Part shown: positions 494-23,625 of the stretch, one piece after another
Numbering within the stretch: position 1 is the stretch's first letter
How the letters are laid out: the number at the start of each line of letters is the position of its first letter
Virus record (IMG/VR): IMGVR_UViG_3300027522_000037
Span: 1-23,968 of that record
DNA: 23,968 nt
Strand: one strand, 5' to 3'
Origin: a virus
Position numbers and translations under genes: made by a program
Notes under the pieces: generated by a model
The model's input: the letters and a program-made list of their open reading frames with translations, nothing else
Told to the model about the DNA's origin: nothing
Databases searched by the model: none

Positions 494-3400
494 CTATAAT
501 TCTAAATCTTCAACATAAAATTCTGCTACGTATCCGTCTATCATGAACCTTGGATTCTCTAGTTCTTGAAGATAGTTAGGAACAAACGTTTCAGAAGCCT
601 TGAGGAACTTAGCATTTGAGCTTAACGAGCTTTGCAACCCAGATCCGTTTGCTGCGGTTGATGAACCAACTGTATACCATGTTTGTGTATGTGTATTAGA
701 TTGCGGCAACTTCTGTGCATCAGTTGTATCGTATACCTCTGTACCAGCTCTATGGCGACTAGCAAATCGTGTTCCATTTGTAGCACGTCTAATCTGAGTA
801 ATATAGTTTTCTTCGTAACTAATCTGCCAGTATATAATTCTTTCATTACCAACATATACTACACCTGGAATGTCTGAATCAGTGCTTGGCTGAGGAAGTT
901 TGCTAGTATCTTTAAGATAAATCTTAGTATCAGTTGGTAGAAGATCTGCGGTTAGTCTAGTAGCGCCATCTGCTGATATTCTAAAGTATTCATAATTGCC
1001 CAACATGTTGTTAATCATTCTGTAGCCAATTGTTGGCTCAATAGTTTTTTCACTAAAGTGTGTTACAATAATTTCACTTGATCCGCCTACTGTTTGGTTT
1101 AGTAAGTCAATCTTTCCAGTATTGCTAACGGCATACTCACCAGCATGCAGTCTTACTCCATCTAAGGTAATCCACAAGTTATCAGTATTTGTTGGAACAC
1201 GATCCATTCCATATTTGCTTATTGCATTACCGCCTACTGCTAGCCTATCAAAAGAGGCACTATCGAATGCTACTTGATCAAATCCATCAATTTCTTGTGT
1301 AACTTCTGAGCCTTTTCCAATGTATACCTTGGTTTGTATACGTAGAGGATCATAGTTATTAAAGCTAGTAACACGAAGTTTATCATTAGCACTAAAACTT
1401 ACACTACTATTAAGTCTAATTGTGTTTGCACTGCTATCAATAAAGTATTCGTTAGCATTGCTAACTGACACTACTAGTGTATCATTTGAAAAACTATAAG
1501 GATCTAATAAGTTTACTCTATGAAACAAGGTGCTATCAGTATCTTCTATAATGGATATAGTATAGTCTTGTATATTAATCAGATTATGTGTAATATTCGT
1601 GGCCGCATCAATCCTTGAAACTGCAATATCCCCTGTAGATACGTTTGTCACAGTCTCTCCAGCAGTTACTGGTGTTCTAAATGCTGTAGTTGACCCATCT
1701 AATATATAATGTCTTGCATTAGCAGGACGTAATCTATGCCCGTTTAGTTCAACAATTACATTACCAGTTATTGCGTTGCTAAACCCTGGATCAAATGAGT
1801 CTGTTAAACTATAAACTAAAGAACTGCCATCTAGCGTAATCTCTTGTGATTCGCCAAACGTAAACGCTGATTTATCTGTATCCCTGCTACTAATAATAAC
1901 ATGAATTAGTGACCCGTCACTGCTAACATCGGAAGTTGTAAGTATGGATCTACCAGGAGATCCCTCAGTAATAGTGTGCTCAACACTTACCCCATCCCTA
2001 AGTACTAAACTTTGTGTATATCTGCTAAAGTTAATACCCATGGTAAATGCAAGAGTGCTACCATCTCCAATAAATGATTGTTCAAAAGTAATTTTTTCAC
2101 CAGTAACTCCATAACCATAAATGTAGATATTGGTGTTAGCTGTTGGTACTGTATTAAGCGTTATTGTCCTATATTCATAATCAACAGTAAAGTCATATGA
2201 TCTGGTTGCGCCAACGTACACTATTAAGAAGTCAACTTGTTCACGTTGCGCTGTTCCAGCATATGAGAACTGTTTTTCTATTCCGTCAGCAGTATAAGAT
2301 CTAGAAACTGTAGTAAAGCTATTTCCGTCTCCTGCAAAATCATCACTTGGATCGGTGTATACTTCCATGTCTAAGTTATCAAACACAATACCAGGAACTA
2401 CTTCTTCCGGAGCATGACTTGCATATATGTCAACAAAGCCGCCGCCATCAATATTAATATCTTCAGGCCGTGTGCCAAGTGCAACGTCTGTAAACACACT
2501 AGAAATAGTAGTGTCAAATGCATTAGATCCACCTAAAACTGCTAGGCCGTCTCCATCAACTTCAAAGTCATCAAAGCCTAAGTTGTCAAAACTTGCATCA
2601 TCAAATCCTGGCTCTCTATCAAATCCTATACCAGAAACTTTATTGCCTTCATAGCCTGTGCCTGTTTGAAGTAAAGCTAAATCGTCGCCAACCATGCCTT
2701 CTGTGGGAGCATAATAGGCTGCAATTCTATCCGCAGCACTTGCTAGATTAGCGTCAGCATATACCACAAGAGCAACTGCGCCTGTAGTATCTTCAACAGT
2801 GAATGTTGTGCCACTGGTAAATCCGCCTGATGCGTCAACTTGATATACATCTTGCTTTTTAGTATTAGTATTATAGTAAGAGATTAAGTCTAAATAATCG
2901 TATGACGTAGATGCAGCCCAGTCTTTAACGGTAGAGCTATATGTAATTCTGTCAAACTTAATTGTTGTATCAAAGTCTCTTATCGTGTCGTTTTTAATCC
3001 TTGGTAGCAATACCAATCCAGTGCCATTGCTGTTAACTGAACTGGCAATAGTTGGAATTTTAGTATATCCACTGCCTTTATTAGTGACAGTTACACGAAC
3101 AATACTATCACCATTGGTAACCGCTGTTACAACTGCCTGAGTTCCTGTTGTTAAATCAGGAGCACTAACTGTAATAACTGGATTATCAGTAAATCCTGTT
3201 CCTGCGTTGTGCAATACAACACTATCTAAATAATAACTATAATTTTCTGACCAAGGCGTATCAACTGTGCCAGTTACACTTCTAGAAACATCATCACCGG
3301 CATAGTCGCCGCTGTATTTTCTAAAGTGTCCATTGGTGCTGTCGTAGAATGCATGTAAATCAAAATCAGTAACGTCACCTTGGAATTTGTCATCACCGTC

Positions 3401-6400
3401 ATACTTTGCAGTATACTCACGGATGTTAGTGTGGTAAGGTTTTACTTCGTTAATATACTCTTCAATAAACGTTGAGTTATCAAGTTGATAAGTTGGATAC
3501 TGGTTTAAATCTCTAACTTTATGTAATACTTTTAAGAAACTAGTTTTTAGAACCCAATCTGTACCGCTTGCGTGTAACTCTTGCATAGCAAACTCTGTCA
3601 TTCTAAAGAATAATTCGTTACGCTTGTTTGCTAGTTCATCTTTAAAGATGTCATTAAAGATTGCAGTTGCAATATTTCTAACTTCCTGGTGTGGAACTCT
3701 GTCAAACTTTTCAAAGTCATAGACACCGCTGTCAAATCCAATGTAACTACCGCTTGCTGCATTAGCAAAGTCATACAATGTACTCTTTAGTTCAACAGTT
3801 CCTTTTTCAATAATAACTTCTTGCCAAGTGCCAGTATCCCCTAGGCTAAAGAAGCTAAAGTTACCATCGTCGTTGCTTCGAACCTTGGCAGTTTCTCCTG
3901 ACACTGCTTTAGTAAGTGTTAACAAGTCTGGTTCAGTTGCTACTGTGTAAGTTGGAATAGTGGTACTATCAAAATTAGTTGCATACCAGTTTGCATAATT
4001 CCAATACCTAGCTGTATTATATGCCTGAACTTGTAATAAGAACCAATATTTAATTCCAGTACTAGTTGCTCTAAGTTCGTAAATAGCCCAATCATCGCCT
4101 ATTGTACTGTCTGACTCAACTATTACTTTATATCCTACTGCAAAGGTAAACAAGTTCAAGTAATCTCTAGTAGTAATATCTGCTACCTTCTTATCCCATG
4201 CGCCACTTGCCTTCGTTGGTTGGGGATCACTTAGGAATAGTGTATCTAATGTATATTGTCTTGCAATAGGAGTTGCTTTGAAAGCTGTATTGCAGTAATC
4301 AATAAATGTCTTTAGTGCCTGTTGCCTGTCATCAAATAATGTTTGACGCGGCCGTATACTAATACCATATTTCTCGCCATCACTAAGAGTTGGGTCTGGA
4401 ACAATCGCACCAGTTACGTCTGAACCAGATAGACTGTCGATAATCTTGCTTTGTATTCTAGCAGGGATTGCTTGCCCTGGGTCGCCTTCGCTAACTAGGT
4501 CAAACTCTGAATGTACTATGCCTTCGTTCTTAACAACGTCATAGTTGATGCTTAATATAGTATCTTTGTCTGAAAAACTATTTGTTAGGTTATTAAGGAC
4601 AACAGTATTCTGTGCTACAATACTTAGGTACTTACTTCCTGTTGAAATGGGATTTTCAATAAGTTGTCTAACACTTTCAGTGCTAAGTTGTCTGCGTTCA
4701 TCACTAGGGAATGTGTTAACGCCAGTTACCCAGTAATAATACCGTATTGCAGTTGAGTTTGTAGTACTATTATAGTATGGAGCAGTACAATAGTTACTGT
4801 CGTCTTGGAACTTAGGTGTTCCTAATAGTCCACTACTAATGTGTTCACTTGGTAATACATCAGTTTCTACCCATTCGTAAATGTCAATGCTTGATCCTGG
4901 GAAGAACTGGTTCCAATGCTGGACGCGATAATCAATGTCGCCTTGCTCGTATTCAATAACTCTACAAGTAGATAGGTCCCACCAAACTCTGCCAATTTTC
5001 TCATTGTTCCATCCGCCTGTTTCAGAGAATGTAACACTATCCCGAGTTGTGCTAATATTGTATGTCGCTGGGTCAATTGGTAGAATATAATCAAGTTCTT
5101 GTTGTGCAAGGCCTGGTAATTTGTTTTTAAATATATCAACAGTGTCGACAAAATCAATAATTTGATTGTTTGTTTTGTCGTAAGTTACAATACGGTTAAT
5201 AACTTCAGGATCTACTTTAGGAGTCTGCACACGGGTCTTTTCCCACGACAATGTATTTGTAGTGTTTTCAAAGTAGTAAAAACTACCTGCATTTGTTAAC
5301 CACTCGTTGTCTGCAGGACTACCAACTAGTAACCTTCCTCGGTTAATTGCTAAACTTCCTCCAAACTGATCTAGTTCATTAATCTTTGTGTTTTGCATCT
5401 GTTGTCCAAACGCAAACTTAGGTGGATTAGTTATGCTTTTTACTGTTCCTGGAGATACACTGCTATCTAACAAATCGTATATGTAAGCAGCTCCACTTTG
5501 TGATACTTTATCAATATATTTGGTACTGTTAGCATCAAATGTAGTTGTAAACTCGTCATGTGTTGCGCTATTTGTATCTGTGTCGCGGTCTAATCCCATG
5601 CGTAGTTGTGTGCTAGCACGGTCACTGCTAATTACTAATCGTTGCTCGCCAACAGAATCAAGCGGAATATATTTGTCAAATTCAAGCACTCTACCAAAGT
5701 TTTCGTTCTCTGCAAGTAGCGGATGATTTAGTTTTTGTGTAAACTTAAATGGCTCTATTTCTGCTCGGGCACGGAACGTATCTCCAGTTCCAGGACGTAC
5801 TTTAAGTATTTTGTTAGCAACTCCAGCACTGCCAGTAATTAACAAATTAGTTGTGCCAATTGTTTCAGCAACTATAGTAGTAAGATTTAAATTATTAATG
5901 TCATCTACTAATCCAGTTGAATCAGCACTAGTGTTTAAAGTAATTCTTACTTCAAAATCATCAATAAACACAGAGTCGTTTTGCACAGCAAACGTACCAA
6001 CGTTTGAGTTCTGTGTAGTAACACTACCAAAACGTAGCCCTTCGTCAATAAAGATGCTTGCCGAGCCTGTATTAGGATTAAGTTCATCTTCGCCTGGGCC
6101 GCCAACAGCAACAATAGCACCGTATGCATCAATACTTACATCAAAACCAAAGTTTTCGCTGTCTGTTGGTTCGTTGCTAGTACTAAGTTGATTTAATAGT
6201 TGTATTTCAGCAAAAACTCCAGTATATACTTTAACTATACTACCGCTTGCTGGAACATACCTAAATGATATTGTATTACTACTAACTGTGTAGCGGTTTG
6301 TACTACTATCAGTATCAAATCCACCAAATCTTCCGTCAGTAAGTGTTTGTAAAACTCCGTCAACTTCAACATAAAACTGTTCAGGTAGTGTATTTGTTGT

Positions 6401-9400
6401 GGTGAACGCAACCGCTGTTCCATCAGCAGTAAATTTTTCTGCAATGTGGTGGAACAAATAAGCCTCACCAGCATCAGTAATACTTGCTGAACTTGAGTTT
6501 GCTACTTCTGCATATGGAGCGCCAACTACTAGTGTATCGCCAGCAGTATCACAATCAATGCTAAATCCAAATTGATCACCTGTTGCTGAACTGCTACCAG
6601 TAATAGTATCTACTAACACGTAATGAGTGCCTTGTCTTACAACAACTTTTAGTCCATTGGCAGGAGCAGTAGTAAATGTTAGCACTGCACCATTAATATT
6701 GTAATCTTTGTATGGCACATATTCTTTAGAATTTTCATCAACAACATGAAGACTGTATACACTACTTGGTGTCCACGTTAGTGTAAAGGCTGTTGCTGAA
6801 CCGGCAGTGCCGGTTACAGTTTGTACCTCTTCATCAACAGTAGCAATAACTGTCTGTGCAAAGCAATAAACAGTATTTTCGCCAGGTGCTGAGACAAACA
6901 AGTATCTGTCATCCTTGCTCATAGCTAAATTAAAGCCAAACTTAGGTGAATTATTACTGTGTGGCCCAATACCTAAACATTGTTTTGGATCGTAAATTCC
7001 ATTAGATGCTCTTTGATATACTATCACAAGTCCGTCGCTACTAACGCTATCTGGAGCACCAAAGGCTGCCCACGTCTTGCCTGCTGCACTGGCTGTACCA
7101 AACCCAGATACGTCGTTTGCAATCGTAGCTGGCGCTAGTGTAGACCCAGGATTATAAATGCCTGTATCATCTTTGAGATATGGATAAACAGCACCATTAC
7201 TTTGATTTGGAGCACCAGAGAAAACACTTAGTGAGTCGTCTGATATTGCTAGACTAGATCCGTTATTAGAGCTGCCGGAGCTATCAATGTTAAAAATTAA
7301 CTTGTTAAAATCCCAGGGCTCTTGTTTTTTAAAAGCCGCCCAAAGTTGTTTTTCATCATAGTCTACCCATACAACTTCGTCCTCGTCCCATCCAAAAAGT
7401 GGAGTGGTATCTGCAATGCTTGCTATGGTTTGAAAACGTGAACTTACTAGTTTAAAGATTGGCAATCTTAAATTAGTAATGTCATCAATCTCATTTTCAC
7501 CAACACTAATGTTAAAAGTGCGTGGTGAATCAACACTATCAACAGTTTTAAACCCGCCAACGATCCCATTGTTTGTCTTAATTAGGACTATATCATCTTT
7601 AATAAGACCGTGATTTGCTGTAGCAGTTAACGTAATGAATCCGGTTGCTCCTTGTGCTACTTCACTGATCTCTACGCCTACTTCTGTAACTCTGTATACG
7701 TTCCAATCAAAGTCGTTTTTAGCTGTCCAAATAGTTGTGCCGCGTCCAATCCTATCAATGTCAATGTTAAGTTCTGCAATGTTGTTTAGATCAAACAGTG
7801 TATAACTTACATCATCTAGTCTTGGATGACCAGCGCCAACAATGTCTTTTTTCTTAACATTTGCATCTCTAGTAAAGAAGATATTTTTGCTGAAGTTATT
7901 GGGTAACTTATGTATATCTTTCTTTTTAAATGTGTAGTAGTTTGAATCTGCCGTGTCGCCGCTATCTAATAGTTGAACCACTGATTGATTTTCTTGGACA
8001 CGGGCTTCGTCAATAATAAGGTCAATAACCTGATTACTATCAATGCTACCGTATTCACCAACACGGAATCCCCATTCTTCGTAGAAGTTAATTTCTTGAT
8101 CTAAGTTAGTTAAATTAGCACCAATCAACTTATCAATAACGTTAGGCGTTCCTTTAGTCTTGATCATTCCTTGATAAAACTTAACTTGGCTAACATCATC
8201 TAACCCAAGCTGGTCTAAATAATCTCTTTTTCTAAATCCAATCTGTCCTTTTGCAGCGGCATCAGTGGCATTTTCTAGGTTAGATTCATTAAAGTCATAA
8301 AACTTATTAAATCTATCAACTTTTTGTGTTATGTTTGGCAACATTCCGGTTTTCATATTATCCACTGGACGCCAGTTGTTGAAATCAAACCTAGGTTTAC
8401 CTTCATGATTATCTCTAGCAACATAGAGTTTGTTGTTGTGGATTATTATGTCAGCTTTTTTGTAGTCAGTGTTCTGTGTCCAAACATTAAACTCATTCTT
8501 GTTGATAATAAACCCAGGAGCATGCAACGTACCGTTCCAACTTCCTGATTTATATCCAACGAACTTTACTCGTGCCTGTCTATTTCCTAGTTCAGGCTGA
8601 TAAATTACATCATTAAAGATAGTCGTGTTATCTAATATAATATAATGCTCGTATTGAATTGGATCAACTTGGGCTGCATACAAATAGTTCTTGCTGTCAT
8701 CAACAGTAATAGTAGTTGTGTTGTCTATTCTTTCTACATTGTATTGTGTAGGGCGGATTGCTTTACTGTCAGTATTTTTAAGTGACCCAGTTTTGCTTAA
8801 ATCATCTATAGTTGTAAGAGCTCTATCAATTACTAGTGTTTCGTATGCCGGACTTGCGCCAAACACTGAGTTATTACCCCAGCCTTGTTGTGTCCAGAAT
8901 AAGAATTCAGAAACTGTATTTTCAAAATCAACAGTTTTGCCATCACTATTAACAGTATCAAACTTAAATCCTTTTACTTTTAAGTACCTCGCATACGCAA
9001 TTAGGAAATCACAAACTTGTTGAACACTTGTAATTACGCTACCATAAGGAACGCTAGTAATATAGTTTTGACTATCACCGTAAATTATTGCACTGCTGCT
9101 ACCAACAGTTATAATGCTTTTCTTGTCGCTTCGGACACTAGGAACAATCTTAAAGAATGGATTTTTTGTATCATATCCACGAATCTCGTAACCATTGGCT
9201 CGTTTAATAATGCTAACACCACTGTAAAATACTCTCTCCAATGGGGTGCTCTTATTAAGATAAACGCTCATGTTTTCATCTGGGATAAAGATATTGTTAC
9301 CAGTACTGCTAGGACTAGTAGATTCGATAATCATTTTAGATAACGTTAAGTCAGTAAATCCGCCAACAGCGTACATCAATTTAAGTTTTAAATTTTGAAC

Positions 9401-12400
9401 AGTTGATCTTAATTCAACAAGATTTAAACTAGTGTATTGGTAGAAGTTAGCCATAAACTGATTATAGCCTTCTACTCTGTCAATAACTGTAGAGTTTGTT
9501 CTTGTTACTCCGTTAATTGTTAAGTCTGCAATATTAGGTCTATAACTCTTGTAACGACGCAACACCTGATCATATTCTTTGTTGTACTCTAGTAAGTTTG
9601 TGTCCCATAGCAATGACATATATTTCGCTGGACGTTTCAGTGCAGCAATAATTTGTATTGCAAAAGGCCATTCACTGCTACGTTTCCAAGCAGTTTCAAC
9701 AGGAGCATGATCGCCAATTCTCCAACTTCCTTCTGTATTGGTGGACAATGCGCCTTGCACTAAGAATTGATTAGGAGCAAGTAGTTGTCCTTGGTCGTCG
9801 GTTGGAATATAATTATAATCATTAGTTGCCAAACCTGGGCGAACACGGTATGGATCAATGGTATAGGTTGAAGACCTTAATGCTCCGTTATAAATTCTAC
9901 CAAATTCTAAATCTTCCCATAAAACACGGTTGCCGCGGGTATAAGGAGCGGCGCCATATCGTTGGTCCCACCAATCAGGTTTTTCAGAAATTCCAAGTAA
10001 TTCCCATGGAGTTAAATGCGGAGTTTCTGTGTCATATAGCCACTCGTAAATACCTCTCCAATAACCTGGCATCTTTGATCCAACGTCAACAGTTAGAGCA
10101 CCGCTGTAATTCCAAGTAAAAGAGTTATTCGAATCATGTATATCATTGTTAGCGGTATCTAATGCATTCTTATGTGACCAACTTGACATGTATTGTGTAT
10201 ATATCTGTGTAGTTTGTTCTAGATCAGTGTAGCTGCTTCTAAAGTACCCAGGCAATACTTCAGCAAGGTCAAAGGTAGTAGAATCATATTGAGTTTTTAT
10301 GTTGTTATACACACGCTTTTCAAACTCAATTAATATGTTATCTCTGCGATCTTTATACGCAATCCAGCGACTACCGTCGTGTCCCAGTATTACCGGAGTA
10401 TAGTTTGAATACTCTGCATAAGCATCACTGTCTACTGCGCCGTGGTTCGCTGCAGAACTTGGCATATAGAACAGTCTGTCACTGCCTACAAATCTGTGAG
10501 CATGCGCTGCGCTGCCTACGTCGGCCGCCTGTGCCGCGGCTTTTGTTGTGTACAATGGATAGAACCATCCGCTAACACCTTGCGCTTTTTGTGTAAATCT
10601 TGAATCCGCTGTACCGTAAATCTTAAATGGTCCAGTGCCTGTACTAGCACCAGTTTGATATGTATCATCAAGAGTAATCGCTGGTTGGAATTTAGAATAT
10701 AATCCTAGTTTAGTTGGGGTTGGCGGAATAAAACTGCCGTCTGTATTCGAGTATTCAACTATTTCAATAATATTGCCAACTGATAAGGCAACTGCTGAAT
10801 TTAAAGTAATCGCTGGTTCTATAGAATCAAACGTGTAATCAAGACCTTCTGTCAACTGAATTTTATCTGCATTGCTTCCCGTTAGGTAAACGATAACTCC
10901 GCGATTACTAATTTCTGTTAAATCAAATTGAGTAGTAAATTCAAATACTCGTTCAGTTGTTTGATCAAGCGTTATCGTTGTTGTAGTTTTTTGACTTCCC
11001 CAGGGTAACATGTCGGAATAGTAAAATGGAAAATCACTAGTTTTTGCACCAGACATAAATGTTAGGATAGTATCTAGCGCAGTGTCTGGGTTTCTTAGAT
11101 CAATGTCAAGTTTGTTAATATTATCAACTAACCTATTCTTAAATCTAGTATATTCTTCCATACTAAATCTTAATGATTCAATTAAACTATTATTTTCTTG
11201 ACCAAGCAGGAAGTGTGGAAGTGTAACACCAGCACTATGCTGTTGGATCTTTCCAGGATATTTCTTGTAGTCAAGATCTCTGGCATTATTAGTGCCAAGG
11301 CTCTTTCCAATTAACGTTGGTATCTCTCTAGTAATTTGGACAAAGTGGTTGCGTAACTGTCCTAGAGTTAACTGTTTAAAGTCGTCATTATTAGCATTAT
11401 TCTCAAGGTTTGAAGGAGTTTCATAAAACGCTAATGGATTCACTGTTTCGCTATAAGCTCTAATAAGAACAATATCATCTTGTGTCAATGCTGCTACAAA
11501 ACTAACATAGTACTTGTCATTAGTTGTTAGTTGGACATACTTGCTAGTAGTTTGGAACGCACCGTTAACAAATACCTGTAGTGTTACTTGGTTAGTATCT
11601 ATTTTGGGCATTGCGCCAATTTCAAAACTGTATAGTTCAGAATCAACAGTGTACTGAACTTGTTGCCATTGTCTGCTTTCGCTTAATACTTTTGTCCAGC
11701 CATTCTTTAATTCTTTAGTAACTACACCATCAAGCTCAGTATTTTTGTGAATGTGTCCGCTTCTAATGATAACATCGACAGCACCAACATTATCTTTTGT
11801 ATATGTAAACTTGTCGTTAACATAATTGTTTTCAAAAAGTATGTCGCCCACGTTATTGATATTTCTATAACTTAATCCGAAGCCTAATACGGTATCAGCA
11901 CTAGCATTGGTATTTCTCTTGTAGCTGAATAATTTATTTCCAAGAAATACTGTACTTGGATATTTTGTTGTATCGCCAAAACTAACATTCTGTGGGTCAA
12001 GCACGTCAAACAATGGCTCTTGGTTAATTTTTGTTTTTTGTTGGCCAAGTGTCCAGGTGTCTGTCAAACTAGTATAGTAAAACACTTTGCCTTGATTCGA
12101 TGTGCCTGTGTTACTAAGCAAACAATCACCGTCTTTAACCGTAGCAATTTTTGTTAGGTTAATAATTGGGTCAGTTGCTAAATTACTATCTTGGTCAATG
12201 TAACTAACTTGGTAGATATTTTGCTTAATATCTGGATCAGCCGTAAAGCATATAGTTACCCCTGGAGTTAAATTAATACCATCTGAGAAGTATCCATTTT
12301 TTCCATTAACATTACTAAACGCATCTGTTTCTGTAGTGTCAATCACATTTACAGGAGATTGACTAGTAGTTCCCATGTTAAAGAGTTGTAAGCCAGCATC

Positions 12401-14050
12401 AAATTCAATTATAGGACGTTTTGCTCTTGATGTATCATCAATTACTAGAGTAAAGTTATTATACCTTGCTGTATCAGTAATTACTGAGCGATGGAACCAT
12501 CTATTTCCGCGACTCCAAGCATTGTTGTCTAGGCTTGCACGGTTACTAATAATATAATCCTGTAACGTTGGGCTATTTAACGAGGCTTCATATCCCCCAA
12601 CATCAAAGTTCTGTGAATCGTAAGGTTCATTTTCAGTTACAGCATATGTTTCTGGTGTAGATAATAATGTCTCAGCAACTAGTTTGATACTAGTTCCAAC
12701 ACCTTCTACGTAAAAAACGGCATTTTGAAAAGTGGTTGGAGTAACACTTGTATCAAATTCAACTTTAAGCCCATTCGTAAATACTACGCCGTTGGGGCTA
12801 GTGTACGTTTCTTTAGATATAATTTCCTGATCAACGTCGATACTTACACTTACGCCTTGGTCAACAAGGACAATTTTACCATTTCTATTTGTATCTGTGC
12901 TGTCTTGATAAAAGAACTCAGATTGGCTAGCAGTAATAGGTGGAATTAATTCAAGTTGTCCACTTGCGTTTTTCCAAAGTTGCTTGTTACCATAAACATT
13001 ACCCTGTTTAACTTTTACTTTGTTGCCAGCTGTAATATCTTTAAGATGTGATAAAACAATAGTATCAGTACCCTCGACCGCGCTAATTGTGATATTAAAA
13101 ACACTGTATCTCTCAACAACCGTTAGTCCTGGCCAATCTGTCTCATCTAAACTTTGGTTAGCAAAAACTAGTGTCTTTCCATCAATTTCAGTTAACCCAT
13201 CAATACCGGTTGGGTAGGCGGCTAGGAAAACACTCAGTGCTTGGTTGTGTACATTTTTGTATGATAAGTCTGTTGCAAGATCAACGTCTGCGTCAACAGT
13301 CATACTTGTAAAGTTATTTTGATCATCAGCTTGAGGAACGCGCCAAGTAACAGTTCCAACGTCTTCGCCGTTATTAACTATACCAACTACGTCACGGGTG
13401 CTGATGTTTGTTTGTGATTTGCTTACACCAGTTGTTCCTAATTCTGTTTGAATCCAAAAAGGATTATCAGTCTGATCAACCTTAAATTTGTATTCTCCGC
13501 CACGAGCCAAATATAGCACTGGATTAGGAGTTGCCGTTGCGTTATCAAATCTGTAGTTTGCAACACCGATTTCTCTAAATATCGTAAAGTCTTGAGTCGC
13601 ATCAACGTCATTTGCAAAAACTTGCACTGTATCTGGGCCGCTGGGTAACCAAAAATATTCACCATAGTTAATTAACTTATCTAGGTCAACATATCCACTC
13701 CAATTATAATACTGTTGTCTATAAAGATTATCTTGATTTGCTGCTTGTCCGCTGTTATACTTAATAGTGTTCAGAGCATCGTTAATACTACTAACACTCT
13801 GGACTGCACCAGACGCATCTTCGTAAACTACCCCAGGCTCAAGTTGATAGTTTTGTCTAAAAGCTGAAGTTTCAACTAGATAGTTATCACCTTTTTGAAA
13901 GTTCTCAGCACTCTTTCTGCCAATAAATCCATTAACTTTTACTTTGTTGTCTTCACTAATTAATTGATCAAGGGTAGCATTTAAAAATTTGTTGTTTTTA
14001 CTAGTGCGAAATACTTCAGGTAGTAACTGTTGTGTTTTTCTTATTGCCAT
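494..14050 (-). CDS. Giant 4518-residue baseplate/virion structural protein in the gp7-gp8 position
   Basis: One uninterrupted frame of 4518 codons starts at ATG 14050 and ends at TAG 494, more than half of the window. The start overlaps the gp6 stop by one base (TAATG) and has GGAGGG 11 nt upstream. The N-terminus (LLPEVFRTSKNNKFLNATLD) and a Trp-rich stretch near residues 1344-1390 (HLTPWELLGISEKPDWWDQR) look like large structural proteins of marine T4-like phages. So do HAPEEVVPGIVFD near 3876 and the GNERIIYW...ATNGTR segment near 4396-4443. I recall some relatives being annotated VrlC, but cannot confirm that here. Seven FG-GAP-like blades lie at about 2260-2943. Beta-rich modules ending in 'V.VDGV...Y....I.F...P..g..V.V' patterns recur before, within and after them. 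I see no signal peptide or membrane segment. T4 gp7 is about 1030 residues, so this is over four times longer. A wedge/host-contact role is inferred from position. Confidence 0.85.
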   Translation of the reverse strand: MAIRKTQQLLPEVFRTSKNNKFLNATLDQLISEDNKVKVNGFIGRKSAENFQKGDNYLVETSAFRQNYQLEPGVVYEDASGAVQSVSSINDALNTIKYNSGQAANQDNLYRQQYYNWSGYVDLDKLINYGEYFWLPSGPDTVQVFANDVDATQDFTIFREIGVANYRFDNATATPNPVLYLARGGEYKFKVDQTDNPFWIQTELGTTGVSKSQTNISTRDVVGIVNNGEDVGTVTWRVPQADDQNNFTSMTVDADVDLATDLSYKNVHNQALSVFLAAYPTGIDGLTEIDGKTLVFANQSLDETDWPGLTVVERYSVFNITISAVEGTDTIVLSHLKDITAGNKVKVKQGNVYGNKQLWKNASGQLELIPPITASQSEFFYQDSTDTNRNGKIVLVDQGVSVSIDVDQEIISKETYTSPNGVVFTNGLKVEFDTSVTPTTFQNAVFYVEGVGTSIKLVAETLLSTPETYAVTENEPYDSQNFDVGGYEASLNSPTLQDYIISNRASLDNNAWSRGNRWFHRSVITDTARYNNFTLVIDDTSRAKRPIIEFDAGLQLFNMGTTSQSPVNVIDTTETDAFSNVNGKNGYFSDGINLTPGVTICFTADPDIKQNIYQVSYIDQDSNLATDPIINLTKIATVKDGDCLLSNTGTSNQGKVFYYTSLTDTWTLGQQKTKINQEPLFDVLDPQNVSFGDTTKYPSTVFLGNKLFSYKRNTNASADTVLGFGLSYRNINNVGDILFENNYVNDKFTYTKDNVGAVDVIIRSGHIHKNTELDGVVTKELKNGWTKVLSESRQWQQVQYTVDSELYSFEIGAMPKIDTNQVTLQVFVNGAFQTTSKYVQLTTNDKYYVSFVAALTQDDIVLIRAYSETVNPLAFYETPSNLENNANNDDFKQLTLGQLRNHFVQITREIPTLIGKSLGTNNARDLDYKKYPGKIQQHSAGVTLPHFLLGQENNSLIESLRFSMEEYTRFKNRLVDNINKLDIDLRNPDTALDTILTFMSGAKTSDFPFYYSDMLPWGSQKTTTTITLDQTTERVFEFTTQFDLTEISNRGVIVYLTGSNADKIQLTEGLDYTFDSIEPAITLNSAVALSVGNIIEIVEYSNTDGSFIPPTPTKLGLYSKFQPAITLDDTYQTGASTGTGPFKIYGTADSRFTQKAQGVSGWFYPLYTTKAAAQAADVGSAAHAHRFVGSDRLFYMPSSAANHGAVDSDAYAEYSNYTPVILGHDGSRWIAYKDRRDNILIEFEKRVYNNIKTQYDSTTFDLAEVLPGYFRSSYTDLEQTTQIYTQYMSSWSHKNALDTANNDIHDSNNSFTWNYSGALTVDVGSKMPGYWRGIYEWLYDTETPHLTPWELLGISEKPDWWDQRYGAAPYTRGNRVLWEDLEFGRIYNGALRSSTYTIDPYRVRPGLATNDYNYIPTDDQGQLLAPNQFLVQGALSTNTEGSWRIGDHAPVETAWKRSSEWPFAIQIIAALKRPAKYMSLLWDTNLLEYNKEYDQVLRRYKSYRPNIADLTINGVTRTNSTVIDRVEGYNQFMANFYQYTSLNLVELRSTVQNLKLKLMYAVGGFTDLTLSKMIIESTSPSSTGNNIFIPDENMSVYLNKSTPLERVFYSGVSIIKRANGYEIRGYDTKNPFFKIVPSVRSDKKSIITVGSSSAIIYGDSQNYITSVPYGSVITSVQQVCDFLIAYARYLKVKGFKFDTVNSDGKTVDFENTVSEFLFWTQQGWGNNSVFGASPAYETLVIDRALTTIDDLSKTGSLKNTDSKAIRPTQYNVERIDNTTTITVDDSKNYLYAAQVDPIQYEHYIILDNTTIFNDVIYQPELGNRQARVKFVGYKSGSWNGTLHAPGFIINKNEFNVWTQNTDYKKADIIIHNNKLYVARDNHEGKPRFDFNNWRPVDNMKTGMLPNITQKVDRFNKFYDFNESNLENATDAAAKGQIGFRKRDYLDQLGLDDVSQVKFYQGMIKTKGTPNVIDKLIGANLTNLDQEINFYEEWGFRVGEYGSIDSNQVIDLIIDEARVQENQSVVQLLDSGDTADSNYYTFKKKDIHKLPNNFSKNIFFTRDANVKKKDIVGAGHPRLDDVSYTLFDLNNIAELNIDIDRIGRGTTIWTAKNDFDWNVYRVTEVGVEISEVAQGATGFITLTATANHGLIKDDIVLIKTNNGIVGGFKTVDSVDSPRTFNISVGENEIDDITNLRLPIFKLVSSRFQTIASIADTTPLFGWDEDEVVWVDYDEKQLWAAFKKQEPWDFNKLIFNIDSSGSSNNGSSLAISDDSLSVFSGAPNQSNGAVYPYLKDDTGIYNPGSTLAPATIANDVSGFGTASAAGKTWAAFGAPDSVSSDGLVIVYQRASNGIYDPKQCLGIGPHSNNSPKFGFNLAMSKDDRYLFVSAPGENTVYCFAQTVIATVDEEVQTVTGTAGSATAFTLTWTPSSVYSLHVVDENSKEYVPYKDYNINGAVLTFTTAPANGLKVVVRQGTHYVLVDTITGSSSATGDQFGFSIDCDTAGDTLVVGAPYAEVANSSSASITDAGEAYLFHHIAEKFTADGTAVAFTTTNTLPEQFYVEVDGVLQTLTDGRFGGFDTDSSTNRYTVSSNTISFRYVPASGSIVKVYTGVFAEIQLLNQLSTSNEPTDSENFGFDVSIDAYGAIVAVGGPGEDELNPNTGSASIFIDEGLRFGSVTTQNSNVGTFAVQNDSVFIDDFEVRITLNTSADSTGLVDDINNLNLTTIVAETIGTTNLLITGSAGVANKILKVRPGTGDTFRARAEIEPFKFTQKLNHPLLAENENFGRVLEFDKYIPLDSVGEQRLVISSDRASTQLRMGLDRDTDTNSATHDEFTTTFDANSTKYIDKVSQSGAAYIYDLLDSSVSPGTVKSITNPPKFAFGQQMQNTKINELDQFGGSLAINRGRLLVGSPADNEWLTNAGSFYYFENTTNTLSWEKTRVQTPKVDPEVINRIVTYDKTNNQIIDFVDTVDIFKNKLPGLAQQELDYILPIDPATYNISTTRDSVTFSETGGWNNEKIGRVWWDLSTCRVIEYEQGDIDYRVQHWNQFFPGSSIDIYEWVETDVLPSEHISSGLLGTPKFQDDSNYCTAPYYNSTTNSTAIRYYYWVTGVNTFPSDERRQLSTESVRQLIENPISTGSKYLSIVAQNTVVLNNLTNSFSDKDTILSINYDVVKNEGIVHSEFDLVSEGDPGQAIPARIQSKIIDSLSGSDVTGAIVPDPTLSDGEKYGISIRPRQTLFDDRQQALKTFIDYCNTAFKATPIARQYTLDTLFLSDPQPTKASGAWDKKVADITTRDYLNLFTFAVGYKVIVESDSTIGDDWAIYELRATSTGIKYWFLLQVQAYNTARYWNYANWYATNFDSTTIPTYTVATEPDLLTLTKAVSGETAKVRSNDDGNFSFFSLGDTGTWQEVIIEKGTVELKSTLYDFANAASGSYIGFDSGVYDFEKFDRVPHQEVRNIATAIFNDIFKDELANKRNELFFRMTEFAMQELHASGTDWVLKTSFLKVLHKVRDLNQYPTYQLDNSTFIEEYINEVKPYHTNIREYTAKYDGDDKFQGDVTDFDLHAFYDSTNGHFRKYSGDYAGDDVSRSVTGTVDTPWSENYSYYLDSVVLHNAGTGFTDNPVITVSAPDLTTGTQAVVTAVTNGDSIVRVTVTNKGSGYTKIPTIASSVNSNGTGLVLLPRIKNDTIRDFDTTIKFDRITYSSTVKDWAASTSYDYLDLISYYNTNTKKQDVYQVDASGGFTSGTTFTVEDTTGAVALVVYADANLASAADRIAAYYAPTEGMVGDDLALLQTGTGYEGNKVSGIGFDREPGFDDASFDNLGFDDFEVDGDGLAVLGGSNAFDTTISSVFTDVALGTRPEDINIDGGGFVDIYASHAPEEVVPGIVFDNLDMEVYTDPSDDFAGDGNSFTTVSRSYTADGIEKQFSYAGTAQREQVDFLIVYVGATRSYDFTVDYEYRTITLNTVPTANTNIYIYGYGVTGEKITFEQSFIGDGSTLAFTMGINFSRYTQSLVLRDGVSVEHTITEGSPGRSILTTSDVSSDGSLIHVIISSRDTDKSAFTFGESQEITLDGSSLVYSLTDSFDPGFSNAITGNVIVELNGHRLRPANARHYILDGSTTAFRTPVTAGETVTNVSTGDIAVSRIDAATNITHNLINIQDYTISIIEDTDSTLFHRVNLLDPYSFSNDTLVVSVSNANEYFIDSSANTIRLNSSVSFSANDKLRVTSFNNYDPLRIQTKVYIGKGSEVTQEIDGFDQVAFDSASFDRLAVGGNAISKYGMDRVPTNTDNLWITLDGVRLHAGEYAVSNTGKIDLLNQTVGGSSEIIVTHFSEKTIEPTIGYRMINNMLGNYEYFRISADGATRLTADLLPTDTKIYLKDTSKLPQPSTDSDIPGVVYVGNERIIYWQISYEENYITQIRRATNGTRFASRHRAGTEVYDTTDAQKLPQSNTHTQTWYTVGSSTAANGSGLQSSLSSNAKFLKASETFVPNYLQELENPRFMIDGYVAEFYVEDLEL
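5221..7275 (-). other. Seven-blade FG-GAP-like propeller inside the giant protein
   Basis: Between residues about 2260 and 2943 the protein repeats a pattern of (FG)xx(L/V)(A/S)xxxxxxLxV(G/S)(A/S)P followed by an aromatic-rich strand. The cores, in order, are SVFSGAP (about 2275), AAFGAPD (2328), LFVSAPGEN (2385), LVVGAPYAE (2507), IVAVGGPGEDE (2647), LVISSDRAS (2805) and LLVGSPADN (2907). Several are preceded by FGF, FGR or FGG. This is the signature of integrin-alpha FG-GAP beta-propeller blades, and seven is the usual count. Blades 3-4, 4-5 and 5-6 are separated by inserts of roughly 80-110 residues. Blade 6 is the weakest match because it has SSD instead of GAP. The fold assignment is by motif reading, not a profile search. 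Confidence 0.7.
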
Positions 14051-17000
14051 TAGTAACCATACCCTCCGGAACTTGAGCCACTTGAACTACTCGAACTACT
14101 CGAACTACTTGAACTACTCGAACTACTTGATGCTGAACTTGTTGATGAAGTCGTTGTGTTCGTTGTTGCCTCTAATGTAGTAGTTGTGCCAGAACTACTA
14201 ACACTTTCTATAGTCGTAATTCCACTAGTAGTATTTACAACATTTCCAGACGCTTGTAATTGAGCGGCAGTAATAACATCAATTATTTCAACATCGTTAA
14301 CTGTCGCTGCACTAATAAAGATCTCATCTCTACTACTAGAAATTTGATACAAACTACCAAAACCGCTGGTGCTAGACTTAGGTACAATGATTACACTGAG
14401 TACATCCGGAGTCAACGTATTGTGCAAATAAGCACCTAGTTCACTGAAGTAGAAAGTGTCACCGAAGTCCCAATTTGATAATGCAAAATAGTTGTTAACT
14501 TCCTCAATTATACGTGCTTTGATCTCATTGTCACTTACTAGCGTTGCAGTATTTTTTACTACTTTAAATGTTGCTTGCAATTCTGTGTCTGCCTTGTCAC
14601 CAAATAATGGTCGATACCTAACACTGTTGAATACAATGGCGTCACTAACACTCTTAGAGTTTTCTAAATCGCCATATGCATCTCTTAATTCGTTGGTACT
14701 CGGCTTAATTGGTTTAGTTGTGGTGCCTGTTAAATCAGTAATCCAGTTTCTAAAGTCAGCATCATAAACTTTTGTTAACAAGAACAAGTCAATAATATTA
14801 CTAGGACTTGGATCAATACGTCTGGCATTTGGACTATTATGTGTATATTGGAACAGTAGATTATCTCTTCCAATTTTGGTGATATAATCAGTTGTTTGTG
14901 TTAAGACCTTTGCGTTTACACTGTTGACTGATAAGATATAAAAACTGCCAGTCCCGGATGCATAAAATATCTGTCCGCTAGCATAAGTGTCCTTGACTGC
15001 GGTAATAGCAGTTAGAGTAGTATAACCGCTTTCAACTTTGTTTTTTGCCACTGGTTCATATCTAGTATACCCACTGTTATCTAAATATGTCTTATAGAAA
15101 ACAACTTTGGTCGCTAGCGATGTGTCTGGTGCTACTACTACATCAAACACATCGGGATCATCAATAACTCCGTCACTATCTTGATCTGGAAAAGTTACTT
15201 TGATACGCTCTGTTAATATATATCCATCATCTTCAATTACAGTGTTGTCGACATTCATAATATAATCTTGACCAAATGCGGTATTAGAATCAGGCAGGCT
15301 GTTAACTTTAAGCATAACAATCTTATCTTTAATAGTTTTGCCTGTTCTTGGATCAAAGATTTTTAAATCTTTGTCAAAGTAAAAACGTGTTTCAAGGAGA
15401 CTTTCAAATACATACTCTAAACTTCTGTGCTTGACTGTATATGTTTCACCGTCGTTGGTAAACAAGAACAACCAACTAGCATCTTGATTGGTTCCAGTTG
15501 AATCGCCTGCAAATTGTAGTCCAAATGTGGTTGTTTGATTAAGGTTAACCCCTAAAACAACAACCCATGCCTGTGTGTCAGCATCATAACGTAAACCAAA
15601 CGTTTTATAATTGCCAATATTGTCAATAAGTGTCTGTCTAATAGTGCTTGTAAAACTAGTGTTCCATGGATAGATAATCTGTTCTAATTTTGCAGTATTT
15701 GGGATAACTTCACTAAGTGTTACTGGCCCAACACCACTGTCTAGATTTCCTACTCCAAGGTTAGTTCCGTCATCAACAACATTACTGCAACTAGCCCAAA
15801 TATAACTTTTGGTATTAAGCGAACCAGCTGTACCAAGTGCCAAGTTATTGTTTATATCAAAAACATAGCCTGATGGAGCAGCAAACTTAACAAGTGTTCC
15901 TTCTTTGAAGTATTTCAAGTTGCTGCTAGTAAAACTTCCAATTTGCTGTGGATTTAACGCGGAGTTTTTAAGAAACCCAGTACACACCCCTGTGCCAATA
16001 GTTGTTTGATTCCAGGTAATACTTAGGCTACTTAAATTAATCCTCTCATAACTTTTTAAGAAGAAGTGATACATTGGATTCGCTTGCATTACGGGTTCAA
16101 CACTAGTTGATAGTGTATTACTAATATCACTGTCGGTAATAAAAGTAAAACTAAATGTTGGTAATGTGTCTTCTTTGTAGAAGATGCCGTCCTCTGCAAA
16201 GATATTAGTTGAACTATACTTTCCAGTAGTGTCTCTGACATCCAAGTAACGGCTAACGCCACTGCTAGTTCTGTTAACAGCCTTGCTTTTAATAATGTTG
16301 TTAAAACTTGTAAAAGGATAAATTTGATAGTCTTCGCCAGTAATCATACGATCCTGTGTGTAGTATTGCTGTTGTGCTCTGGCCTTAACATCATTTAAAT
16401 TTTCTCTTGCACTAGCATTTGCTACAGTCTGCTTTAAGCTCATGTTAACTGTTAGTGTTTCAACCTGTGCGCTATGGCTTACATAAGGGATACTTAATGT
16501 AACAGCATTCATGTCTGCTGGACTAATTTTATATGTAAACCCGTTGCCAACACGGAAATAAACCCTGTAGTTTCCTTTAGGGATATTTGAAAATACTCCG
16601 TCGCCAAATACAAGGCTAATCCTATCTGCACTACGACTTTGAACACTGTACAACGTTTTAATGTCTTTGTTAAGACTGTTAAAGATAGCATTGTTTCCAG
16701 TTATAGCAGGAATTTTATCCCAAAGGGTTTCCTCTTTGCCATCGCTGTCTAATTCATACAACCATACGTCATTATTTTCTATTCCGTTAACGTCAACTTC
16801 AACAACACGGTTTGGTAATGCTTCATCAACATTAAAATCCAGCGTTTGCAAGGCGCCTTGTTTGAAGTAAAAAAAGAATCCAGTATTAACACTGTTGAAC
16901 CCACGGGTATCGTTTCTGTAGATTGTATTAATAGTGCTACCCGGTCTAGGTGCAACTTCATACAGATAATCTGTGCCACTGAAAGTTCCGTTGACAATTT

Positions 17001-17637
17001 CAAAAGGAAATTCTTGTGTGCTTACATCGTTTCTAAAATCATATACCGGAATAGTGTTTGGTACTGTACTGATATTGTATTCTTGTATTTGTATCCCGCC
17101 TACAGTAGTTTTAAGAGCAGGGTTACCAAATCTCTGTGTCTTAACCATACTAGCGTTCATAATAGTAGTAAACTGTTCTAGGAAGTCTGGATTAGTCTCG
17201 TCGCCCCAAAAAATCTCTGTGTTTTCAAGGTTGTTTCCGTTGCTGTCATTAATAACTTCTGTTGTAGATACACTGTCAATTTTAAGCATTCCACGTGCAA
17301 TTTGACTACGTTTAGGAAAATAGTTAAGCATCTTAGCAAGGCGGAGAATACTGTCTCTACGCTCTGCTGTTTCAAGGAAGTTTTCTCTAGCATTTAAGTC
17401 TGTTCTAAAACTTAAACTCTGTGCTACATACGCAATCATGTCAATAAGTGCTACATATTCACTGGATTCAATGTAATCGTTAAAATCTTCTGGATAGTAG
17501 TTGCGCAAATAGTCAACCATGCTCTTACGAATAGTCTGGAAATCGTAACTTTGAAAGTCGATTTCCTTGAATGATTCGTAAACTTTTGTCCAGTCTTCAG
17601 TAGCAAAGAGATTGCTTGATCGTGTTGTGTTAGCCAT
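14050..17637 (-). CDS. 6: Baseplate wedge protein gp6
   Basis: A 1195-residue protein. The N-terminus (residues about 20-115) carries the gp6 signature: IDFQSYDFQTIRKSMVDYLR, then NYYPEDFNDYIESSEYVALI, RTDLNARENFLETAERRDS and LRLAKMLNYFPKR. A second conserved block at about 403-483 has QDRMITGEDYQIYPF, then KAVNRTSSGVSRYLDVRD. A block near 1009-1135 has RPLFGDKAD and NWDFGDTFYFSELGAYLH, consistent with the C-terminal part of gp6/baseplate-J-type proteins. In T4, gp6 dimers join neighbouring wedges into the inner baseplate ring and drive the switch to the contracted state. T4 gp6 is about 660 residues, so this is nearly twice as long. The C-terminus is an unusual polyserine tail ending GGYGY. 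A late-type promoter and a GGAAGGTGA ribosome-binding site precede ATG 17637. The stop overlaps the start of the giant gene by one base. Confidence 0.94.
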   Translation of the reverse strand: MANTTRSSNLFATEDWTKVYESFKEIDFQSYDFQTIRKSMVDYLRNYYPEDFNDYIESSEYVALIDMIAYVAQSLSFRTDLNARENFLETAERRDSILRLAKMLNYFPKRSQIARGMLKIDSVSTTEVINDSNGNNLENTEIFWGDETNPDFLEQFTTIMNASMVKTQRFGNPALKTTVGGIQIQEYNISTVPNTIPVYDFRNDVSTQEFPFEIVNGTFSGTDYLYEVAPRPGSTINTIYRNDTRGFNSVNTGFFFYFKQGALQTLDFNVDEALPNRVVEVDVNGIENNDVWLYELDSDGKEETLWDKIPAITGNNAIFNSLNKDIKTLYSVQSRSADRISLVFGDGVFSNIPKGNYRVYFRVGNGFTYKISPADMNAVTLSIPYVSHSAQVETLTVNMSLKQTVANASARENLNDVKARAQQQYYTQDRMITGEDYQIYPFTSFNNIIKSKAVNRTSSGVSRYLDVRDTTGKYSSTNIFAEDGIFYKEDTLPTFSFTFITDSDISNTLSTSVEPVMQANPMYHFFLKSYERINLSSLSITWNQTTIGTGVCTGFLKNSALNPQQIGSFTSSNLKYFKEGTLVKFAAPSGYVFDINNNLALGTAGSLNTKSYIWASCSNVVDDGTNLGVGNLDSGVGPVTLSEVIPNTAKLEQIIYPWNTSFTSTIRQTLIDNIGNYKTFGLRYDADTQAWVVVLGVNLNQTTTFGLQFAGDSTGTNQDASWLFLFTNDGETYTVKHRSLEYVFESLLETRFYFDKDLKIFDPRTGKTIKDKIVMLKVNSLPDSNTAFGQDYIMNVDNTVIEDDGYILTERIKVTFPDQDSDGVIDDPDVFDVVVAPDTSLATKVVFYKTYLDNSGYTRYEPVAKNKVESGYTTLTAITAVKDTYASGQIFYASGTGSFYILSVNSVNAKVLTQTTDYITKIGRDNLLFQYTHNSPNARRIDPSPSNIIDLFLLTKVYDADFRNWITDLTGTTTKPIKPSTNELRDAYGDLENSKSVSDAIVFNSVRYRPLFGDKADTELQATFKVVKNTATLVSDNEIKARIIEEVNNYFALSNWDFGDTFYFSELGAYLHNTLTPDVLSVIIVPKSSTSGFGSLYQISSSRDEIFISAATVNDVEIIDVITAAQLQASGNVVNTTSGITTIESVSSSGTTTTLEATTNTTTSSTSSASSSSSSSSSSSSSSSSSGSSSGGYGY
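14062..14067 (-). promoter_or_regulatory. Ribosome-binding site of the giant gene, inside the gp6 3' end
   Basis: The minus strand reads GGAGGG 11 nt before ATG 14050. It lies within the last codons of gp6 (the GGY part of its C-terminus), so translation of the giant gene is probably coupled to gp6 through the TAATG overlap. Confidence 0.6.
14084..14128 (-). repeat. 9-bp tandem repeat (five units) coding polyserine at the gp6 C-terminus
   Basis: On the plus strand the unit is GAACTACTC or GAACTACTT, repeated five times without interruption. On the coding strand each unit gives three serine codons (TCG/TCA plus AGTAGT-type). Flanking codons extend the serine run to about 17 residues. Unit length is a multiple of three, so copy-number change would lengthen or shorten the tail without a frameshift. 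Confidence 0.9.
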
Positions 17638-17692: not shown

Positions 17693-18064
17693 CTAGCTTA
17701 CTGTGCCGTCTTGTCTATCGAAATTAATAACAAGGTTTTCGCTCTGGTTAGATTGCACATATAATAGATTAATTTGTGCTTGAAGTCCGTTTTCGTACTC
17801 TTCGATAACAAGTTGTTGTAAAGAAACACGGGGATCTTGTGCAATAGTCGATGTAACTTCCTCAAGAAGTAAGTTTTTTACCTCTTCTGTTAGTGGTTCC
17901 ATAACTAAATCTAATACCCCACTACCATATCCCGGGGTTCCAACTTTTTCGCCTTTGCGTATAGCAAAAGCATTTAACAAATCGCGTTTAACTAACTCTG
18001 TATCTACTACTTTAGTAGATAAAAAGTTTCCTTGTAATGTGCTAAAACCTCTATACATAGCCAT
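17693..18064 (-). CDS. 25: Baseplate wedge/sheath-initiator protein, GPW/gp25 family
   Basis: 123 residues, close to the T4 gp25 length (132). The family hallmark is near residues 24-60: TELVKRDLLNAFAIRKGEKV then GTPGYGSGVLDLVMEPLTEE. This is the 'L.N....RKGER...P.FGSGL.dl.fePl' pattern of gp25 and phage P2 gpW proteins, also found in type VI secretion (TssE) and R-type pyocins. gp25 sits at the inner edge of the wedge and acts as the platform from which sheath polymerisation begins. It forms the core wedge bundle with gp6 and gp53, both encoded in this window. ATG 18064 has a strong AGGAGA site 6 nt upstream and lies 12 nt after the gp5 stop, so the two genes are likely co-transcribed and coupled. 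Confidence 0.95.
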   Translation of the reverse strand: MAMYRGFSTLQGNFLSTKVVDTELVKRDLLNAFAIRKGEKVGTPGYGSGVLDLVMEPLTEEVKNLLLEEVTSTIAQDPRVSLQQLVIEEYENGLQAQINLLYVQSNQSENLVINFDRQDGTVS

Positions 18065-23322: not shown

Positions 23323-23625
23323 TTAAATTCCTAATGCTTGAGAAAGGGTATCCTGCTTAGGTATGTAGATTTTTTTACCTATAACAAAATCCCAAATTGG
23401 ATCTTCGATTGCATTGGGGTTCCTAACCGCAAAAACCCACCATAATCTTTCATTGTTGTACAAGTCATATGCAAGAAGATCAGGTCTATACTGGTATGTT
23501 GTATTAATAGTAAACAGAACATCATCAGCATGACTTGGAATAGGCCTGTGTTCATAAATGTCTAAAAATGTTCCTTGCATTCTTGTCTGTGCATATGGAC
23601 TATCTTGTCTGTATTCTACAGCCAT
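23323..23625 (-). CDS. 53: Baseplate wedge protein gp53
   Basis: 100 residues. The core TINTTYQYRPDLLAYDLYNN followed by ERLWWVFAVRNPNAIEDPIW and DFVIGKKIYIP is the gp53 family signature: 'YRPDLLAYdLYg...LWWvFa.RNPn.i.DPi.Df..G..I.iP'. T4 gp53 is about 196 residues, so only the conserved core is kept. In T4, gp53 clamps adjacent wedges together around the hub and is needed for six wedges to assemble into the ring. The C-terminal part resembles a LysM-like fold. The start at 23625 overlaps the upstream stop by one base (TAATG) and has an excellent AGGAGGT site 8 nt upstream, so this start is secure. The next gene begins one base after its stop. Confidence 0.9.
   Translation of the reverse strand: MAVEYRQDSPYAQTRMQGTFLDIYEHRPIPSHADDVLFTINTTYQYRPDLLAYDLYNNERLWWVFAVRNPNAIEDPIWDFVIGKKIYIPKQDTLSQALGI

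Follow-up and report, generated by a model that had tools for sequence, protein, structure and literature searches.

Integrin-like propellers are already known from animals, bacteria, giant viruses and free-standing proteins of jumbo phages, and the usual role of the FG-GAP family is ligand binding. In bacteria and large DNA viruses, proteins of the FG-GAP_2 repeat family (PF14312) are usually free-standing or linked to collagen. The alpha heads of integrins consist of seven FG-GAP blades, and integrin propellers bind Ca2+ via DxDxDG motifs located where a loop connects strand 1 to strand 2 (PMC3192720; PMC8023676). Among jumbo phages, gp213 of the Sinorhizobium phage AP-J-162, called a hemagglutinin, is reported to be similar to the human integrin 3VI3 (PMC11242549); this protein and gp320 of Atu_ph07, also called a hemagglutinin, are separate products of 375-393 aa. 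The latter, at L251 5019-6200, is a free-standing FG-GAP propeller whose gene adjoins tail sheath genes. Sinorhizobium phage Phosso encodes two adjacent giants of 3162 and 3692 aa that consist largely of FG-GAP repeats (L252 4339-24979, corresponding to Phosso 48338-68978). In the open-licence papers searched, we found no report of an FG-GAP propeller inside a baseplate protein.

The window analysed here is the whole 23,968 nt of a 24-kb virus record, which is a fragment. It carries baseplate genes in the T4-like order gp53-gp5-gp25-gp6-giant:

23323..23625, minus strand: gp53-like baseplate wedge gene (PF11246 E 1e-4, phrog_7145 E 9e-28)
18077..20434, minus strand: gp5-like baseplate hub gene (phrog_13211 E 7e-22)
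17693..18064, minus strand: gp25-like baseplate wedge gene (PF04965 E 5e-8)
14050..17637, minus strand: gp6-like baseplate wedge gene (phrog_10646 E 6e-298, and phrog_219)
494..14050, minus strand: single ORF for a giant 4518-aa baseplate-region protein (phrog_10938, virion structural protein, E=0, five stretches)

The C-terminus of the gp6-like protein bears a long serine-rich tail, with an uninterrupted run of about 20 serines ahead of GSSSGGYGY. Through its scaffold, the giant protein belongs to phrog_10938 together with the giant proteins of PA5oct, RaK2, 121Q, SCTP-2, Atu_ph07 and Phosso, with which it also shares the gene order after gp25 and gp6; the order is identical in PA5oct, where a gp10-like gene then follows. 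Contigs behind L002-L005 encode giant proteins of identical architecture that are 77-88% identical across their full length. The original prediction had assigned the protein to the gp7/gp8 region of a T4-like baseplate. Its gene neighbours are indeed those of a T4-like baseplate, but profile searches with alignments of the giant-protein scaffold (A6-A9) returned no PDB or Pfam match to T4 gp7 or gp8, and a single weak Gp7_5th match in L245 (E 0.029) lay below the cut-off; the gp7/gp8 assignment is therefore positional only. When the whole giant protein was used as a single-sequence PDB query, it gave a chance match only (LolD, E 0.88), and a profile was needed.

Synteny and the presence of relatives in virions suggest that the phage is a jumbo myophage and that the giant protein forms part of its baseplate. 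PA5oct gp355 is recorded as detected by ESI-MS/MS, and phAPEC6 gp245 (382 kDa), which adjoins the baseplate wedge protein gp244 and is orthologous to the giant protein by position and size only, was detected in virions (PMC7247149). The five genome contigs come from marine MAGs of mixed taxa and are probably binned phage contigs, so that a host cannot be named.

Within the giant protein, the original prediction had placed a seven-bladed FG-GAP propeller at 5221-7275 (residues 2259-2943). Profile and model together confirmed a complete propeller of this kind, spanning residues 2226-2944. The features are listed below; blades were delimited by strand order in the model and alignment (A3 for blade 1), and blade 4 gave the best single FG-GAP_2 match.

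5219..7375, minus strand: seven-bladed FG-GAP propeller with the preceding N-terminal hairpin, residues 2226-2944 (PF14312, AlphaFold, PDB profile and fold matches)
7133..7261, minus strand: blade 1, residues 2264-2306 (no FG, core FSGAP)
6968..7111, minus strand: blade 2, residues 2314-2361
6596..6940, minus strand: blade 3 including insert I, residues 2371-2485
6629..6847, minus strand: insert I, a small beta domain in the blade 3 C-D loop, residues 2402-2474
6188..6583, minus strand: blade 4 including insert II, residues 2490-2621
6239..6427, minus strand: insert II, in the blade 4 C-D loop, residues 2542-2604
5720..6163, minus strand: blade 5 including insert III, residues 2630-2777
5774..6040, minus strand: insert III, in the blade 5 C-D loop, residues 2671-2759
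5393..5710, minus strand: blade 6 (degenerate GAP core), residues 2781-2886
5495..5617, minus strand: blade 6 B-C loop with a TTFD motif conserved in the alignment of homologues
5219..5377, minus strand: blade 7, residues 2892-2944

FG-GAP_2 was matched at E 6.3e-12 (45.9 bits) in the whole protein and at E 2.6e-14 (53.6 bits) in the subregion, far exceeding the 23-bit gathering threshold of Pfam, as well as in 57 of 61 homologues. A profile of these 61 homologues, searched against the PDB, retrieved integrin alpha-4 (E 6.9e-17), followed by alpha-6, M, L, E, X and 5. Seven spaced GAP-type cores had been proposed; the GAP-core pattern occurs far more often than by chance (5 observed versus 0.14 expected; maximum of 2 in 5000 shuffles). 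The cores are FSGAP (residue 2277), AFGAP (2329), FVSAP (2385), VVGAP (2508), VAVGGP (about 2648), LVGSP (about 2907) and, in blade 6, which has no GAP core, a degenerate VISSD (about 2805). FG pairs occur at residues 2317, 2371, 2494, 2634, 2785 and 2896, and the combined pattern FG-x(6-30)-GAP was observed five times versus 0.016 expected from shuffles. The claim that FGF precedes several cores held for three blades only, and blade 1 has no FG at all.

An AlphaFold model of residues 2215-2965 reached a pLDDT of 88.8 and a pTM of 0.90, and its strand groups, assigned to blades by reading the DSSP list, are consistent with seven blades of four strands, in agreement with the seven FG-GAP/Cage blades found in the sequence. 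Foldseek ranked integrin heads as the best PDB matches of this model, with a TM score by target of 0.27-0.58 depending on the alignment, a spread that arises because the inserts disturb the superposition. The minimal homologue L063, modelled with its flanks (pLDDT 84.9), matched integrin alpha-V with a TM of 0.57 by target length, although Ski8, paraoxonase and other propellers were matched too. The propeller fold is thus firmly predicted by the models, whose top Foldseek matches have the closed ring of integrin heads, and the integrin type is its best, though not its sole, fold match. That the region might instead consist of generic beta-sandwich repeats could be suggested by inserts I and II, which resemble the small beta domains often seen in phage fibres, and by several other beta repeats in the C-terminal third of the giant protein. 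Such an arrangement is already contradicted by the seven four-stranded units of a confident model and by the integrin propeller matches, which leave it hardly credible. Inserts I and II showed no significant relation to the beta repeats of the C-terminal third.

The expected likeness to integrins was borne out, integrin alpha heads being the nearest solved structures by both profile and fold. Unlike these heads, the propeller of the window has no DxDxDG motif in its A-B loops, carries inserts in its C-D loops, and is set in a phage scaffold with no beta subunit. One DxDxDG-like string occurs in the window, inside insert I, and 12 of the 61 homologues have one anywhere. Given A-B loops without the motif, the domain is best described as an FG-GAP propeller, a member of that family but not strictly an integrin domain. 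By the curated cut-off it shares the repeat family of the bacterial and large DNA virus FG-GAP_2 proteins, and giant-virus FG-GAP proteins are among its fold matches, but here the repeats form a domain built into a baseplate protein. Atu_ph07 gp320 also matches the propeller profile (E 8.6e-30), whereas the giant baseplate protein of Atu_ph07 itself has no propeller. The fold list further bears on whether the propeller could be an enzyme-like or depolymerase domain acting on surface polysaccharide, as some phage tailspikes use propellers and endosialidase NF appears low in the list. We consider such an activity improbable, since integrin heads lead both the profile and the fold matches, the repeats of the FG-GAP_2 family are non-catalytic, and no catalytic family was matched by Pfam in the window.

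Inserts of 80-110 residues had been placed between blades 3-4, 4-5 and 5-6. In the model they lie instead within the blades themselves (3, 4 and 5), in the loop that joins strand C to strand D, and measure about 73, 63 and 89 residues by the segment boundaries used. Among the 61 homologues, blade lengths are nearly constant (standard deviation mostly 2-5 aa), while insert I varies from 8 to 217 aa (median 20), insert II from 8 to 65 aa (median 17) and insert III from 4 to 151 aa (median 7); with such medians, most homologues lack the inserts. The expectation that these segments vary most was therefore borne out for presence and length, but only mildly for substitutions: the inserts are optional among homologues and not hypervariable between close relatives. 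In two lineages (L163 and L245), CBM5/12 modules are found inside the insertion. Insert III resembles a Flagellin IN motif by eye, and Flagellin_IN was called in two of the 61 homologues. A further insertion, smaller and conserved, occupies the B-C loop of blade 6, where Asp 2839 (window 5534-5536) of the TTFD motif is invariant in all 61 homologues. Neither the free-standing propeller of Atu_ph07 gp320 nor the Phosso arrays contain the motif, and from the alignment the loop that bears it may have either a structural or a ligand-binding role.

The propeller interrupts a scaffold shared with cultured jumbo phages:

7646..10453, minus strand: conserved N-side scaffold flanking the insertion, residues 1200-2135 (homologous in PA5oct, RaK2, 121Q, Atu_ph07, SCTP-2 and others)
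3221..5275, minus strand: conserved C-side scaffold flanking the insertion, residues 2926-3610 (sequence comparison with relatives)
8405..8482, minus strand: CBM5/12-like module in the scaffold, residues 1857-1882 (CBM_5_12 in 21 of 25 members; E 0.0038, below the cut-off, for the window sequence alone)

The CBM5/12-like module is also present in relatives without the propeller. Cultured jumbo phages match residues 1-2128 and 2927-3600 of the giant protein, but not the region between, where RaK2 and Vibrio phage 2.275 have only about 85-150 aa and PA5oct, SCTP-2, Atu_ph07 and Phosso have unrelated domains. The SCTP-2 insert looks LamG-like by eye, without a Pfam match. Two related inserts at the same site (L159 8762-9889 and L010 9995-11497) are 33% identical to each other; their likeness to a LamG-type jelly roll was likewise seen by eye only, and Pfam gave no match.

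We surveyed the insertion site in 241 ORFs (120 clusters) obtained from three scans centred on different relatives, the viral scan being made with a C-flank query. A propeller was present in 101 clusters, other inserts in 11 and almost nothing in 8, counts that are not unbiased proportions because each scan was limited to the 80 best matches among at least 585 relatives. In a tree built from the two flanks with the insert left out, all 101 propeller-bearing rows fell on one side of a single branch (SH-aLRT 98), and propeller presence required one change versus 17.8 with shuffled labels. All cultured relatives lay outside this clade. A tblastn search of isolated phages with the propeller as query gave almost no matches apart from Phosso and S-MbCM6, so that no isolate of the clade is present in the collection searched. 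Some members are found on contigs of 221-322 kb (L179, L138 and L081), indicating that the clade includes jumbo phages. The simplest reading of the flank tree is that the propeller was gained once, with no loss seen in the 101 sampled lineages.

When the window is compared with L003, dN is 0.209 for the propeller and 0.096-0.117 for the main scaffold blocks, with dS being similar, so that the propeller changes in protein at about twice the scaffold rate; residues 3901-4518 evolve as fast as the propeller. Nucleotide identity to L002 is 76% around residues 1201-1500 and rises to as much as 96.5% in the propeller. This difference (96% versus 76-90%) is suggestive of recombination of the propeller between related phages, but the whole gene is mosaic and we did not rely on it.

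Taken together, these observations are best explained by a role of the propeller in host-surface binding, a reading to which we give about even weight. It is favoured because a ligand role is usual in the family, CBM modules are plugged into the propeller, the propeller evolves faster than the scaffold, and relatives dispense with it. On the flank tree, the seven-bladed integrin-type propeller entered the conserved scaffold once, in the common ancestor of a large clade with no isolate in that collection. It would project from the wedge and offer a platform for binding the host surface, the likeliest partner being a glycan or a surface protein. Its blades would form a fixed frame, the optional small domains in the C-D loops of blades 3-5 would tune the contact, and the conserved TTFD loop of blade 6 would be a fixed structural or binding element. 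A rapidly swapped head is ruled out by the single gain and by retention in all 101 sampled lineages. More specifically, we tentatively propose that in this isolate-less jumbo-phage clade the propeller may be a permanent receptor-contact head of the baseplate, with swappable lectin-like domains on one face of the ring. By analogy, the loop position counts against host binding, as C-D loops in integrins lie on the Ca2+-site side and not on the classical ligand face (PMC3192720, PMC8023676 and general knowledge).

The permanence of the propeller in the clade makes docking the chief rival: the propeller might be mainly an internal structural element that holds another baseplate or tail-fibre protein, with no direct host contact, in the way that the alpha propeller of integrins carries the beta I-like domain. 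Retention in 101 lineages and several near-invariant columns fit a structural role equally well, and one gain without loss, the invariant Asp of the blade 6 loop and the baseplate gene neighbourhood all agree with docking, which we regard as a real possibility while leaning somewhat against it. Close relatives assemble without the propeller, RaK2-like scaffolds having only about 85 aa at the site; moreover, the scaffold evolves more slowly than the propeller, whose inserts, including the CBM5/12 modules, suggest outward faces.

As a fixed domain within a giant baseplate protein, the propeller defines a large clade of environmental jumbo phages. Should it contact the host, it would mark a host-contact part in phages without a known host and would provide a well-delimited domain for expression and testing. 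The site of insertion, which holds different domains in related phages, offers a natural comparison of baseplate remodelling in giant phages.
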